DNA from: a bacterium
GTDB lineage: Bacteria; JAHJDO01
NCBI GenBank assembly: GCA_030611945.1
Contig: JAUWOV010000086.1
Coordinates: forward strand, 1-6,709
Direction: 5' to 3'
Length of the DNA stretch: 6,709 nt
The notes beneath the pieces are model-generated. The model was not told where the DNA came from and made no database searches. It saw only the letters and a list, made by a program, of their open reading frames with translations. This document shows positions 1,038 through 6,709 of this stretch, piece by piece (positions within the stretch are counted from its first letter, which is position 1; each line of letters starts with the position of its first letter). The position numbers and the translations under genes were made by a program.

Positions 1038-1966
1038 TAAAAGATATAATTTTTGGCACGGTCGGCGGACTCGGGTTATTCCTCTATGGCATTCACATAA
1101 TGAGTGACGCTCTCCAGAAAGTAGCTGGAGATAAGATGAGAAAAATACTGGGCATAATAACAAATAAGGCTTTTTTCGGCTTATTGGCCGGCGCTGGAAT
1201 TACCAGTATTATTCAGTCAAGTAGCGCAACAACAGTTATGGTAATAGGCTTTGTTAATGCAGGGCTTATGACCTTAAAGCAGGCCGTTGGTGTTATATTC
1301 GGAGCGAATATAGGAACAACTATTACCGCTCAGCTTATTGCTTTTAAAATAACTCATTATGTGCTGCCCATCATTGGGATAGGCTTTGCATTGCATTTTT
1401 TCTCTAAGAAGCGCATGCCAAAACAAGTAGGCATGGTCATATTCGGATTTGGTCTTTTGCTTCTTGGTTTGAGTATTATGACGGATACGGTGCGGTTCTT
1501 GCGTAGCAGCCAGGCTGTGGAAGATATCTTTGTCAATTTTAGCAGGACACCTATTTTAGGAGTGCTTGCAGGGATGATTGTAACTGTGATTGTTCAGAGC
1601 AGCAGCGCAACAGTTGGTATTACAATGGCACTTGGTATGGGAGGACTTATTGATATAAATGCAGCAATCCCTTTATTGCTTGGGGATAATATCGGAACAT
1701 GCGTAACAGGAATGTTGGCAAGCATTGGAACTAATGTCGGAGCTCGCCGTGCTGCTGTGGCTCATGTTCTGTTTAATATAACAGGAACGGCAATAGTTTT
1801 ATTGCTGCTCCCAGCCTATAAGGCACTAGTTATGTACACGGCAAATGATATTGGAAGGCAGATTGCCAATGCGCATACACTGTTTAATGTTATTAACGCT
1901 TTTTTGTTTTTGCCTTTTACAGGAGCCTATGCCAGATTAATGGGTAAAATTAAACATTTAGGGTAA
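1034..1966 (+). CDS. Na+/phosphate cotransporter (NptA/PNaS family), 3' end cut off by the transposon
   Basis: This multi-pass inner-membrane protein is predicted to import phosphate with sodium. Two inverted copies of the family core are visible: repeat 1 begins near residue 10 (GGLGLFLYGIHIMSDAL) and carries QSSSATT at about 62-68 and FGANIGTT after it; repeat 2 carries VQSSSATVGIT at about 188-198 and LLGDNIGTCVTG after it. Gene-derived sequence ends at about residue 302 (base 1941). The last residues, MGKIKHLG, and the TAA at 1964-1966 are encoded by the left terminal repeat of the transposon. Full-length bacterial relatives are commonly above 500 aa with a cytoplasmic PhoU-like C-terminal domain, which is absent here. 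Both transport repeats remain, so the 310-aa product could still fold and function; that is inference. The start overlaps the trmO stop. Confidence 0.9.
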   Translation: MIKDIIFGTVGGLGLFLYGIHIMSDALQKVAGDKMRKILGIITNKAFFGLLAGAGITSIIQSSSATTVMVIGFVNAGLMTLKQAVGVIFGANIGTTITAQLIAFKITHYVLPIIGIGFALHFFSKKRMPKQVGMVIFGFGLLLLGLSIMTDTVRFLRSSQAVEDIFVNFSRTPILGVLAGMIVTVIVQSSSATVGITMALGMGGLIDINAAIPLLLGDNIGTCVTGMLASIGTNVGARRAAVAHVLFNITGTAIVLLLLPAYKALVMYTANDIGRQIANAHTLFNVINAFLFLPFTGAYARLMGKIKHLG

Positions 1967-1981
1967 ATCTGTCATAGGATT
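1942..1981 (+). repeat. left terminal inverted repeat (IRL)
   Basis: These 40 bp are identical to the reverse complement of 5924-5963. The pairing extends one base outward (T1941/A5964) and breaks at 1940 and at 1982. It begins GGGTAAAATTAAACATTTA and ends CTGTCATAGGATT. The GGGTAAA end motif occurs twice, at 1942 and again at 1961, and ATTTA-GGG-TAAAT (1956-1968) is a small palindrome around the second copy. The repeat supplies an in-frame TAA (1964-1966) to the interrupted cotransporter gene. Tn3-family ends are usually about 38 bp, so the length is close to normal; the doubled motif and the absence of the usual inner TAAG are unusual. Confidence 0.95.
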
Positions 1982-2010
1982 TCTCAAAAAAGCTTGAATT
2001 TACGTAGTTT

Positions 2011-2040
2011 TGGGTAAATTAAACAAGTTCCATAGGATTC
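2011..2040 (+). repeat. shortened internal copy of the terminal repeat
   Basis: This stretch reads TGGGTAAATTAAACA, then AGTTC, then CATAGGATTC. The outer part matches the first 16 bases of the terminal repeat including T1941, with one A fewer. The inner part matches its last 9 bases. The 16-base middle of the full repeat is replaced by 5 bases. It has the same orientation as the left end, about 70 bp further in, and its last two bases are the beginning of the tnpR stop triplet (2039-2041). A second AGGATT follows directly at 2041. It may be a leftover older end, or an extra transposase binding site. Confidence 0.7.
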
Positions 2041-2659
2041 AGGATTTTGTCCCTAATTTCCTTGATTTAATAAATTCGTAGAGTGCTGTTCTAGATATTT
2101 CCATAATTTTGGCAATGGAAGACTTTGAAACAGTTTTTGATAGCAGAGTTTCGATTTCTTCTTCTCTGCCATCCAGTTTTGATTTCCCCAACGAGCCTTT
2201 TGGTCTACCAAGCAATTTCCCTTTAGCCTTTGCTGCTGCCAATCCTTGCTTGGTCCTTTCGGAAATTAGGTCCCGCTCAATCTCAGCAAAGAGACCAAAC
2301 ATTGCAATCATTACCTTAGTTTGCATGTCCTGTCTACCATTACCATTTAGAACAATGTTTTCTTTCACAGCAATAAACTTGTTTTTTCTCTTAATCAATT
2401 CATCAACGATTTGGATAATCTGTCCCAAGCTTCTGCCCAAGCGGGAAAGCTCACTAACGATTAACATATCGCCATGATTCATTTGTTCTAAAAGCTCAGT
2501 GATTCTGCGTTTTCCCACAGACTTTTGAGATGAGACTTGAAGCTTAATAAAATCATCAATTTTTATTCCCTGTTTATGTGCATAGTCAAGAATCGACAAC
2601 CTTTGGCTATCTAAACTCTGCTTATCTGTGGACACTCGTAAATATGCTATTGTTTTCAT
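2039..2659 (-). CDS. tnpR: serine resolvase/invertase of the transposon (TnpR)
   Basis: The 206-residue serine recombinase is expected to resolve the cointegrates made during replicative transposition by acting at a res site, and to repress the divergent promoters. The N-terminal catalytic domain shows YLRVST with nucleophile Ser10 and Arg8, then SELSRLGRS with Arg73 and Arg76, and the long helix FAEIERDLISERTKQGLAAA (about 124-143). A GRPKG hinge (151-155) leads to a C-terminal helix-turn-helix, roughly 178-203 (SKSSIAKIMEISRTALYEFI). It is slightly longer than the 185-aa Tn3/gamma-delta resolvases. The ATG at 2659-2657 has GGAG 6 bases upstream (2669-2666), a good ribosome binding site. It is transcribed away from tnpA across a shared 128-bp region. 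The DNA inversion activity known for relatives cannot be excluded, but the context favours resolution. Confidence 0.93.
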   Translation of the reverse strand: MKTIAYLRVSTDKQSLDSQRLSILDYAHKQGIKIDDFIKLQVSSQKSVGKRRITELLEQMNHGDMLIVSELSRLGRSLGQIIQIVDELIKRKNKFIAVKENIVLNGNGRQDMQTKVMIAMFGLFAEIERDLISERTKQGLAAAKAKGKLLGRPKGSLGKSKLDGREEEIETLLSKTVSKSSIAKIMEISRTALYEFIKSRKLGTKS

Positions 2660-2713
2660 CCTTTTCTCCGCACATGTCTAGGAAAACATAAAAATGAGTT
2701 TTTCTTTACAATT

Positions 2714-2742
2714 ATTGTCTGCTATAATCAGACGTTTTGCAA
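2714..2742 (-). promoter_or_regulatory. possible tnpR promoter
   Basis: On the minus strand, TTGCAA (2742-2737) is followed, after 17 bases, by GACAAT (2719-2714). These match the -35 and -10 consensus at four of six positions each with ideal spacing, about 55 bases ahead of the tnpR start. The segment overlaps the tnpA extended -10 and the same half-sites, so the two promoters would be face to face and co-repressed. This is weak sequence evidence only. Confidence 0.35.
2720..2728 (+). promoter_or_regulatory. extended -10 promoter for tnpA inside a resolvase-like palindrome
   Basis: TGCTATAAT is a perfect extended -10 element (TGN-TATAAT) on the tnpA strand, about 60 bases before its start codon. 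A T-rich but weak -35 region (TTTTTC at 2699-2704) precedes it at an 18-base spacing. The element forms the centre of the palindrome GTCTG-CTATAAT-CAGAC (2717-2733), whose arms are resolvase-like half-sites, so bound TnpR would cover the promoter and repress tnpA. Repression of both genes by resolvase is known for Tn3; here it is inferred from overlap. Confidence 0.6.
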
Positions 2743-2787
2743 GATATATTTTATCTATTTAGACGAACGATAAAGTAGGATTTGGAT

Positions 2788-5700
2788 ATGGCTACACACC
2801 TCAAAATTCTTAGCCAACACGATAGGATGATTTTTGAATTCCCTCCAAAATTTAATGGAGAAGATAGAAAGCGATTTTTTGCCTTGCCAAAATGGACTAT
2901 TGAACTGGTGGATAGCTTTAAAACTCCCACAAATAAAGTAGGCTTTGTTTTGCAACTTGGATACTTTAAGGCAGCCAACAAATTCTTTGTTGCCAAGAAG
3001 TTCCATCGCAAAGATATGGAATTTGTTGCCAAAAAATTAGAAATTTCGCCCGAAAAAATCAATTTTAGGAAATACATAGAAAGAACCTTTGCCAGACATC
3101 AAGAGATCATTCTCGAAAGACTTGGATTCCAAAAGTTTAATGAACAATTCAAACAGTTTCTTATTAAAGAGGCTGTATCTCTATGCTCAAAGCAGATGAA
3201 ACCGCGATTTATGTTTATGTCGCTGGTTGATTTTCTTAGGGGAAAAAGGATTGAAGTTCCTAACTATAATATTTTATCCGAGGTTATTACGAATGCCTTA
3301 AAACTTTTTGAAAGAAGAGTTATGTTTTCGATTGAAAAGCATCTAACTTTAGTGGAAAGACATCTTCTTGATGAACTTTTGGACATAAGCGAAGAATACC
3401 TTGCGGAGGAAAAACAAGATTTAAAAATCAAGCGGTATAAAGTCACCCTACTTAAAAAAAGTAACCAGTCTACAAAGCCTTCTAAAATAAGAGAGAACAT
3501 TTATGACATGGAATGTCTTAAAGCCCTTTTCCGTAAACTCAAACCAATTATAGACCATTTGGATTTGACACCGGAAGTTATTAGATATTATGCTCAGCTT
3601 TTGATCAAATCACAGATTTTCCAAATATCTAGGAGAGAGGACAATAAATACCTACTCCTAATTGCTTTTGTTATCCATCAGTATTACAGACTAAACGATG
3701 TTCTTGTGGAGATTTTGATACAGGCAAGTCAAACAGCTATTAACACCAGCGCAAGGGAACATAAAGAAAGTTTTTACGAAGCTCGGCGATCCAGGCATCA
3801 GATTATCAGCAATGTTTCCAAGTCCATGATCAATCATATAAGTACGTTGCAGAAGATTGAAGAGGTCATCCATGGTCAGGAATTAACTAATGAAGATAAA
3901 GTAAAGATTGTAGAATCTCTACTTCCAAAGAAGAAGATACCAGAATATTCTGAGATACAAAAACAACTGACACTGTTAGAAAAAGAATCCACACGAATTA
4001 TCAAAGATGATGACTATTATGATATTATGGAATCTAGATCCATAAAACTTCAAAACAGGGTTTCGGAAATTATTAAACGACTTCACTTCGACAGAGAAAC
4101 TTCCGACAAAAAGATTATTGAAACAATTGAGTATTACAAAAAAAGAGACGGCCTCTTGGGAGTTGATACTCCACTTGAACTTTTGGATATCAGCGAAGAG
4201 GAGGTTGTGTTCGATGATAAAGGGAAATTAAGAGTATCTCTTTATAAAATTTTATTATTTGAAAAAGTTGCGTCTGCTATCAAGTCAGGTGCATTAAATC
4301 TACGTTATTCCTACAAATACCGATCATTTGATGATTATCTAATTCCTCAAGATGTCTGGAAAACGCAAAAAAAAGAACTTCTGGAACGAGCAGGGTTAAC
4401 ACGATTTGAAGATTTTCAAAACTTAGAATCTAATATAAAGCAAAGTCTTAAATTCCAGTACCAGGTAACAAATGAAAATATTAATAGGGGTAAAAATAAA
4501 TACGTAAAGATTGATGCTGGAGGCAACTTAAAGGTCTCAACACCAAAGAAGGAAAAAGATACTCCTGACGCTGTAGCAAATTTGTTTCCAAAAAACCGAT
4601 TCATTTCCTTATTTGAAATATTATCAACTATCAATAAAGCCTCTGCTTTTACGGACTGCTTTGAGCATTGGCAAATCAAGCATAATCGAGAAAAACCAGA
4701 GGATAAAACTTTTTTTGCTGGGGTCATTGGTTATGGATGTAATCTCGGCATCAGAAAGATTGCAAAGATTTCCACTAACATCAAACAGAATGAACTTGAA
4801 AACACAGTTAATTGGTATTTCTCTGCTGATAATTTGAGTCATGCAAATGACAAAATCTTAGAACTTATGGACCAACTACAGCTTCTAGGTCTTTTTAAGA
4901 AAGAAAAAGATATAACTCATACCAGCAGCGATGGCCAAAAATTTAATATCGCTGTCGAGTCCTTAAATGCAAACTATTCTTACAAATACTTTGGAAAAGG
5001 AAAGGGCGTAACTGTCTACAGTTTTATCGATGAAAGCCATCGGCTTTTTTATTCAACAGTCATCAGTTCTTCAGAACGCGAAGCAGCATATCTAATCGAT
5101 GGATTAATGCATAACGATGTGGTTCAAAGCGACATCCATTCCACCGATACGCATGGATATAGTGAAATGATTTTTGGCGTCACTCATTTGTTGGGAATTT
5201 CATATGCGCCACGGATTAAAAAATTCAGAGACCAAAGACTCTATAGTTTTGAGAAAAGGTCAAATTTTAAAGATCTTAACTACCTAATTCTGCCGGATGG
5301 AAGAATTAACACAAGAATCATTGCGGAAAATTGGGACAACATATTACGTTTTGTGGCGACCATAAAATTGAAAGAAACAACAGCCTCTCAATTGTTCAGG
5401 AGACTAAGTTCTTACTCGCATCAACATCCGCTGTATCGAGCTCTGAAAGAATTTGGGAAAATACCTAAAACCCTTTTTCTTCTCAAATACATTGATGATC
5501 TTGAACTCAGACAAGCTATTGAAAAACAGCTGAATAAGCTGGAAAGCTCCAATAAATTTGCAGATGCTGTCTTTTATGGGAACAACCAGGAATTCCAACA
5601 GGGTACGAAAGAGGAGCAGGTTATAGCAGAAGGATGTAAACGATTGATTGAAAATGCGATAATTTGCTGGAACTACTTATATCTATCTCAACTTGTCTAC

Positions 5701-5871
5701 GATGCTGAAACTGAAGTACAAAAACAAAATATTATTCAAACTATCAAAAACGGCTCAGTAGTTGCCTGGCAACATATCAATTTACAGGGAGAGTATGACT
5801 TTTCTGAGGAAACACTGAAAGATTCTATTGAATTTAGACTTCCAGAATTATTGGCATTGAAAGTTAGCTGA
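2788..5871 (+). CDS. tnpA: Tn3-family DDE transposase (TnpA)
   Basis: This protein carries out replicative transposition by binding the terminal repeats and joining the 3' ends to the target. From ATG 2788 it has 1027 residues, normal for the family (about 960-1010). AGTAGGA (2774-2780) is a good ribosome binding site 7 bases before ATG 2788; an in-frame TTG at 2782 is too close to it. The N-terminal part (about 1-165, HLKILSQHDRMIFEFPPKF onward) matches the DUF4158 DNA-binding region seen in Tn3 transposases; a long Lys/Glu-rich helical middle follows. The catalytic domain (about 600 to the end) shows SSDGQKF with D715, STDTHGY with D787 and LNKLESSN with E919. Spacings of 72 and 132 are close to those of characterised members. 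GKGVTVY, LLGISYAPRI and LFRRLSSYSHQHPLY are further family blocks. No frameshift or missing key residue was seen. Confidence 0.96.
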   Translation: MATHLKILSQHDRMIFEFPPKFNGEDRKRFFALPKWTIELVDSFKTPTNKVGFVLQLGYFKAANKFFVAKKFHRKDMEFVAKKLEISPEKINFRKYIERTFARHQEIILERLGFQKFNEQFKQFLIKEAVSLCSKQMKPRFMFMSLVDFLRGKRIEVPNYNILSEVITNALKLFERRVMFSIEKHLTLVERHLLDELLDISEEYLAEEKQDLKIKRYKVTLLKKSNQSTKPSKIRENIYDMECLKALFRKLKPIIDHLDLTPEVIRYYAQLLIKSQIFQISRREDNKYLLLIAFVIHQYYRLNDVLVEILIQASQTAINTSAREHKESFYEARRSRHQIISNVSKSMINHISTLQKIEEVIHGQELTNEDKVKIVESLLPKKKIPEYSEIQKQLTLLEKESTRIIKDDDYYDIMESRSIKLQNRVSEIIKRLHFDRETSDKKIIETIEYYKKRDGLLGVDTPLELLDISEEEVVFDDKGKLRVSLYKILLFEKVASAIKSGALNLRYSYKYRSFDDYLIPQDVWKTQKKELLERAGLTRFEDFQNLESNIKQSLKFQYQVTNENINRGKNKYVKIDAGGNLKVSTPKKEKDTPDAVANLFPKNRFISLFEILSTINKASAFTDCFEHWQIKHNREKPEDKTFFAGVIGYGCNLGIRKIAKISTNIKQNELENTVNWYFSADNLSHANDKILELMDQLQLLGLFKKEKDITHTSSDGQKFNIAVESLNANYSYKYFGKGKGVTVYSFIDESHRLFYSTVISSSEREAAYLIDGLMHNDVVQSDIHSTDTHGYSEMIFGVTHLLGISYAPRIKKFRDQRLYSFEKRSNFKDLNYLILPDGRINTRIIAENWDNILRFVATIKLKETTASQLFRRLSSYSHQHPLYRALKEFGKIPKTLFLLKYIDDLELRQAIEKQLNKLESSNKFADAVFYGNNQEFQQGTKEEQVIAEGCKRLIENAIICWNYLYLSQLVYDAETEVQKQNIIQTIKNGSVVAWQHINLQGEYDFSEETLKDSIEFRLPELLALKVS

Positions 5872-5923
5872 AATGGGAACGGAAAATTTTAGAAAATCCT
5901 TACAGGTCAGGGTATTTTTACTG
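5872..5923. other. short non-coding spacer between tnpA stop and right terminal repeat
   Basis: These 52 bases hold no gene. They contain AT-rich sequence with a degenerate sub-terminal match to the repeat (near 5891-5906, minus strand). I see no stem followed by a T run that would make a convincing terminator for tnpA. Confidence 0.5.
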
Positions 5924-5963
5924 AATCCTATGACAGATTTACCCTAAATGTTTAATTTTACCC
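5924..5963 (-). repeat. right terminal inverted repeat (IRR)
   Basis: This is the perfect reverse complement of IRL over 40 bp, read inward from 5963 as GGGTAAAATTAAACATTTA and so on. It begins 52 bp after the tnpA stop. The outermost TAA (5960-5958) terminates the interrupted pstA frame. Just inside it, on the minus strand, CCTGTAAGGATTTTC (around 5906-5891) resembles the inner part of the repeat (TCTGTCATAGGATTTC) and may be a degenerate sub-terminal copy. Confidence 0.95.
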
Positions 5964-6050
5964 AATAATAAAAAGAGCCAACATAATAACAACAGCCGCC
6001 AATCTCAATATTGCAAAACCTATAGATTCTTTGAGCTTTCTTAAATTCAT
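5958..6050 (-). pseudogene. pstA: phosphate ABC transporter permease PstA, N-terminal fragment cut by the transposon
   Basis: PstA pairs with PstC to form the membrane channel of the high-affinity PstSCAB phosphate importer. The frame starts with ATG 6050-6048, overlapping the pstC stop as ATGA, and reads MNLRKLKESIGFAILRLAAV and then VIMLALFII, which is a basic N-terminus entering the first membrane helix. After codon 29 the right terminal repeat begins, giving Gly and a TAA at 5960-5958. PstA proteins normally have about 280-300 residues, so over 90 percent is missing and the fragment cannot work. Identification rests on the N-terminal pattern and on its place directly after pstC. The rest of pstA, and the expected pstB and phoU, are not on the other side of the transposon. 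Confidence 0.82.
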
Positions 6051-6709
6051 CCTAATCTTCTCCTGAATCTCTGTGTTAAAAGATCGGCAATGATATTAAA
6101 AGCCAATGTCATCATAAAAAGAACTATGGCAATAGCAAACAAAGCGTGATAGTGATCGCCTCCTACCACTGTTTCCCCCATCTCAGCAGCAATAGTGGCA
6201 GTCATGGTGCGCACAGGTCTGAAAAAGGAGCGAGGTATAACCGCTGCTCCGCCCGCAACCATTAACACAGTCATTGTTTCACCCACTGCTCTGCCCATGC
6301 CCAAGATAATTGCAGTGCTTATTCCGCCAGCTGCGGCAGGAACAGTTATTTTGACAGTTGTCTCCCATCTGTTTGCTCCTAATGCGTATGAAGCTTCTTT
6401 AAAACTCTTGGGAACCGAAGAAATAGCGTCTTCGGAAATACTGGTAATAGTTGGAATAGCCATAATCCCCAAAAGGATAGAGGCGGTAAATGCAGTCAGC
6501 CCCACGGGTAAACCGAAAAAATTCTGCACCCACGGAGCCACAACCACCATTCCAAAGAAGCCGTAAACCACAGAAGGAATACCTGCGAGAAGTTCTATTG
6601 TCGGCTTTATAAGCCCTTTTATTCTTGGTTGAGCCGCTTCTGAGATGTAAATAGCTGAAGCCACTCCTAAAGGCACAGCAATAATCAGCGCGCCAAATGT
6701 AACCCATAG
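6047..6709 (-). CDS. pstC: phosphate ABC transporter permease PstC, 5' end outside the window
   Basis: This inner-membrane permease subunit of the PstSCAB phosphate importer has 220 residues visible, open to the right edge; the true start lies beyond. It begins LWVTFGALIIAVPLGVASAI, in the middle of the permease domain, so the GTG at 6676 is an internal codon and not the start. Visible features are several membrane helices, the GIPSVVYGFFG loop, and an EAA-type cytoplasmic loop that would contact the PstB ATPase (SFKEASYALGANRWETTVKI, followed by GGISTAIILGMGRAVGET). The C-terminus is hydrophobic with a basic tail (RFRRRLG). It overlaps pstA by four bases (ATGA), so they form an operon. With pstA broken downstream, PstC has no partner encoded here. 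Assignment to PstC and not PstA rests on gene order and on the following PstA N-terminus. Confidence 0.93.
   Translation of the reverse strand, partial: LWVTFGALIIAVPLGVASAIYISEAAQPRIKGLIKPTIELLAGIPSVVYGFFGMVVVAPWVQNFFGLPVGLTAFTASILLGIMAIPTITSISEDAISSVPKSFKEASYALGANRWETTVKITVPAAAGGISTAIILGMGRAVGETMTVLMVAGGAAVIPRSFFRPVRTMTATIAAEMGETVVGGDHYHALFAIAIVLFMMTLAFNIIADLLTQRFRRRLG

Follow-up and report, generated by a model that had tools for sequence, protein, structure and literature searches.

How does a single transposon come to lie between the stumps of two different phosphate-transport genes, nptA and pstA, with no target duplication to mark its arrival? The question is raised by a stretch of 6,709 bp (hereafter the window) that makes up one whole contig, C18, of the draft genome of an uncultured bacterium (G000; 1.66 Mb, 119 contigs, 90.9% complete, 3% contaminated), with pstC running off the contig's end. 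A sequence-only reading of this DNA had put the arrangement down to a Tn3-mediated rearrangement, either deletion or inversion, in place of a simple insertion. We have followed up that proposal by comparison with two genomes of the same genus (G002 and G003, 96% and 91% complete) and a relative (G004), as well as with related transposons from other sources. The features on which the argument turns are the following, in window coordinates.

534-1037, + strand: trmO-like gene upstream of nptA (TIGR00104, 132.6 bits, cut-off 93.25)
1034-1941, + strand: nptA (Na+/Pi symporter), first 302 codons, transport domain complete, PhoU-like C-terminal part lost
1936-1940: left flank ATTAA, native nptA sequence (alternatively TTAAT, 1937-1941, if the repeat starts at GGG)
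1941-1981, + strand: left terminal inverted repeat, 41 bp, TGGGTAAAATTAAACATTTAGGGTAAATCTGTCATAGGATT
2012-2045, + strand: further repeat-like stretch, degenerate, just within the left end (read from the sequence)
2039-2659, - strand: serine recombinase/resolvase, 206 aa (PF00239, 2.4e-35)
2660-2781: divergent intergenic region, 122 bp, by its position the expected place of res
2782-5871, + strand: Tn3 transposase, about 1027 aa, intact (PF01526, 420.9 bits; DUF4158, 103.6 bits)
5924-5964, - strand: right terminal inverted repeat
5965-5969: right flank ATAAT, native pstA sequence (alternatively AATAA, 5964-5968, under the other boundary)
5964-6050, - strand: pstA, first 29 codons (69% identical to residues 1-29 of G004 PstA)
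6047-6709, - strand: pstC, C-terminal 220 codons, contig end inside the gene (TIGR02138, 255.6 bits, cut-off 196.45; 89% to G004)

An intact Tn3-family transposon and its ends

The element between nptA and pstA is a complete Tn3-family transposon, consisting of a serine resolvase, a 1027-aa transposase and exact inverted repeats, and its identity as a transposon is far beyond chance: the transposase matches PF01526 over the complete profile (1-389 of 389) and scores 711.6 bits with NF033527, for which the cut-off is 500. Of the traits of the family, it has the large DDE transposase, repeats in the range of about 38-41 bp and, for the resolution of cointegrates, a serine recombinase divergent from the transposase. 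A repeat search of the 122-bp intergenic region returned no repeats strong enough to define res. A degenerate copy of the terminal-repeat motif, GGGTAAATTAAACA...CATAGGATTCAG, occupies positions 2012-2045 of the window, and a related element described below (L045) carries a comparable inner copy at its position 801.

The inverted repeats had been taken to start at GGG, and from that point (GGGTAAAATT...) they are indeed identical at all 40 positions (1942-1981 against 5924-5963); one T more probably belongs to them, with which the identity extends to 41 of 41 (1941-1981 against 5924-5964). This T ahead of GGG is common to both ends in the window, as it is in L045, L117 and L118, the closest three relatives whose two ends are both resolved, and since L045 then displays a 5-bp duplication, ATGAA, we adopted a repeat of 41 bp, by which the element would probably measure 4,024 bp, from 1941 to 5964. 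A more distant element, L122, is fitted by the GGG start, with the duplication ATCTA; the position of the boundary may therefore differ by a single base between elements.

The transposon is single-copy in the draft genome, where a second copy was sought and not found, and none of the other contigs ends in a transposon end. No close DNA match to it was found on plasmids, and neither a relative of the transposase nor the exact terminal repeat was found in viral contigs. The likeness is greatest to L045, an element in the metagenome-assembled genome of Nitrospirae bacterium nDJH14bin7 (JADFXO010000217.1), which has the same gene order, with a divergent serine recombinase and a transposase of about 1030 aa that is 61% identical to that of the window, and whose terminal repeat is identical at 34-35 of 40 positions; it differs in being located in other genes and in retaining its duplication, ATGAA, at the T-GGG boundary. 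Tn3-family elements on the Thiothrix plasmids pTunz1 and pTfr153 share the divergent recombinase and the transposase at about 44% identity, have ends of the form TGGGTGAA...CATAGGATTT and, like the window's element, lack matching flanks of 5-9 bp; they differ in being plasmid-borne, among host genes unrelated to phosphate.

Two breakpoints and unmatched flanks

Both native genes break off at the ends of the repeats, since alignment with the intact genes of relatives stops at those points. On the left, the window aligns with the intact nptA of the same-genus genome G002 as far as base 1941 and there stops, in agreement with the earlier statement that the left repeat truncates nptA at about codon 302 (the cut falls after codon 302). 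On the right, the pstC-pstA DNA aligns with that of G004 as far as 5965, which bears out the truncation of pstA after codon 29 by the right repeat.

A simple Tn3 insertion is expected to leave a 5-bp target duplication. The flanks of the window had been reported not to match at 5 bp, and this holds under both boundaries (TTAAT/AATAA and ATTAA/ATAAT) and at every length from 5 to 9 bp. Of the related elements, six have clear ends (L045, L117, L118, L120, L122 and L125); two of these show a duplication and four do not, a count from which L119, L121, L123, L124 and L126 were left out, their automatically found terminal repeats being untrusted. Given these proportions, the absence of a duplication in the window is less remarkable than it would otherwise be, and, as deletion or recombination is known to erase the duplication, its absence does not exclude membership of the Tn3 family.

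How the two genes came to be joined

We believe, with some confidence, that the junction is the real product of an ordinary, intact Tn3-family transposon and arose through adjacent deletion or through recombination of two copies in direct orientation. The transposon would have sat in, or entered, either nptA or pstA, whereupon the DNA on one side would have been removed by one of two routes: intramolecular replicative transposition in cis into the other gene (the adjacent deletion), or recombination, resolvase-mediated or homologous, between two copies in direct repeat. After either, a single copy would remain, with an old flank on one side, a new one on the other and no duplication; the route taken, the gene first struck and the closeness of the two loci at the time are things that we infer. 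The locus has the marks of an adjacent deletion, in that the element is single-copy, its flanks are unmatched and the breaks fall exactly at the repeat ends. Two further observations lend support. Contigs of this draft end about 136-141 bp inside a multi-copy insertion sequence (IS), a sign that repeats normally stop the assembler, and yet it passed through the 4-kb transposon; and the lineage does make duplications, since the closest complete relative, L045, has the 5-bp ATGAA. A Tn1331-derived element of the Tn3 family, on pAAC154-type plasmids, offers a parallel: it deleted 171 bp next to one of its ends, later 1,259 bp next to the other, and both duplications were lost (PMC5142620). In that case parent and product plasmids were both sequenced, whereas the window is known from the product alone.

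The favoured reading has to accommodate the fate of the remaining pst and pho genes. In G004 the operon pstS-pstC-pstA-pstB-phoU is intact, and a simple deletion running through pstA should next take pstB and phoU, which the sequence-only reading had supposed probably removed or displaced. They are not lost from the draft: another of its contigs, C64, holds pstB from codon 20, phoU, phoB and phoR, together with a CBS-GGDEF gene and an additional nptA that is intact (nptA2). The first 136 bp of C64 recur nearly identically in about 16 other contigs of the draft, at their termini or close to them, and the start of C64 (1-137; terminal TCCCAAATTCCTATTTAGACCGG...) is apparently one end of a multi-copy IS (about 17 copies) that interrupts pstB at codon 20 and is probably behind much of the assembly's fragmentation. 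Because pstB-phoU-phoB-phoR survive on C64, bounded by the IS in pstB, the rearrangement would require that these genes were already separated from pstA, for example through an IS-mediated rearrangement, or that they come from a co-binned strain without the deletion.

It had further been suggested that nptA and pst could have been neighbours. The relatives do not support this, and a short deletion accordingly has no direct support from them. An nptA follows argH, near gyrB and dnaN, in G004, G002 and G003; the closest G002 orthologue of the window's nptA lies in another context than argH; and in none of these three genomes does nptA border pst. A former neighbourhood is nonetheless possible: nptA2 lies within the pho cluster of C64, in the same relative orientation as that of nptA to pstA in the window. 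In the draft genome nptA2 belongs to this cluster and is no longer in the argH neighbourhood.

The most serious alternative, which we regard as rather unlikely, is an assembly or binning chimera, whereby the population would contain a pair of insertions, in nptA and in pstA respectively, or else two strains, and the contig would run from the left flank of the first into the right flank of the second. The draft is of metagenome type, with 119 contigs and 3% contamination; the pst genes are spread over two contigs, one of which starts in a repeat; C18 has unique sequence at both ends (a repeat was looked for at its left end and none was found); and the sequence that separates the transposon in pstA from the IS in pstB would span a mere 0.8 kb or so and, as so short a contig, may have been discarded. 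Against this, none of the other contigs carries a transposon end, and an assembler that halts some 140 bp inside a different multi-copy element would not ordinarily be expected to pass through a 4-kb repeat present in two copies. The 3' part of nptA is absent as well: in a search of the rest of the genome, which had been proposed as a check, the remainders of nptA and pstA were not found, and neither were pstS, the start of pstC or the start of pstB, in a draft that is 90.9% complete and from which short contigs with the 3' parts may have dropped out. The mis-join that the sequence-only reading named as its main alternative is weakened by these points and keeps some likelihood, as short contigs may be missing.

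Whereas a simple deletion would not keep pstB-phoU-phoB-phoR, an inversion would. Intramolecular transposition, which is known to yield inversions too (PMC5142620), would in this case have gone in trans and placed a second, inverted copy at the far end of the inverted segment, with the 3' halves of both genes joined there. We nevertheless hold it improbable, since the required second copy was not assembled, no contig ends in a transposon end and a joined nptA 3'/pstA 3' sequence was not found in the draft genome; of the deletion or inversion originally proposed, rearrangement as such thus stands as the best reading and inversion is the less likely form. Finally, a simple insertion at a pre-existing nptA-pstA fusion, made by an earlier rearrangement, is very improbable: nothing specific speaks for it beyond the multi-copy IS as evidence of other sources of rearrangement, the fusion and insertion points would have to coincide exactly in both genes, and the 5-bp duplication, here absent, would remain.

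The shortened NptA and what is left of phosphate uptake

Both genes had been called broken, and both are cut; for nptA, the transport domain of which is whole, the word may overstate the damage. The shortened protein consists of 302 native residues and 8 encoded by the repeat, compared with 543-544 aa for intact NptA in relatives; it is 91% identical to the G002 protein (89% in DNA) and matches PF02690 twice and TIGR00704 over 6-302 of 308. Both transport repeats and every hydrophobic segment are kept, there being none past residue 300, and the match to the PhoU domain in intact G002 NptA begins at residue 340. As the whole transport domain is thus retained and only the PhoU-like domain lost, the shortened NptA may still transport phosphate. 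A structure prediction (pLDDT 36) was uninformative and was set aside. NptA proteins naturally without the PhoU-like domain exist, as in the B. subtilis and V. cholerae types (PMC13170248); the architecture is alike, although those are natural full-length genes and the short form in the window was made by a transposon. This resemblance calls for caution, as 'truncated' need not mean 'dead'. That the transposon-made NptA would be a working, unregulated phosphate importer, selected while two mobile elements dismantled the high-affinity pst operon, is a speculation to which we give little credence.

The pst operon is cut by two different elements, 821 bp apart in G004 coordinates. In the same-genus genomes G002 and G003 neither pstC nor pstA was detectable, so that the pst importer is missing more than once within the genus. 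These findings suggest a lineage that is dismantling its high-affinity phosphate importer while keeping sodium-driven ones, and they provide a clear field example of a Tn3-type element joining two cut genes and losing its duplication, albeit one of modest general importance, the mechanism having long been known.

Two minor observations concern the genomic surroundings. The pho cluster runs pstB-phoU-phoB-phoR-GGDEF-nptA2 in the window's source genome (L051, 137-6832) and phoB-phoR-phosphoesterase-GGDEF-porin-pstSCAB-phoU in G004 (L052, 848-10797). In addition, an intergenic stretch of about 30-50 bp from G002 (L080, about 2435-2486) occurs at 85-94% identity in at least seven contigs of the draft genome (C115, C73, C28, C113, C19, C12 and C114) and is possibly a small dispersed repeat.
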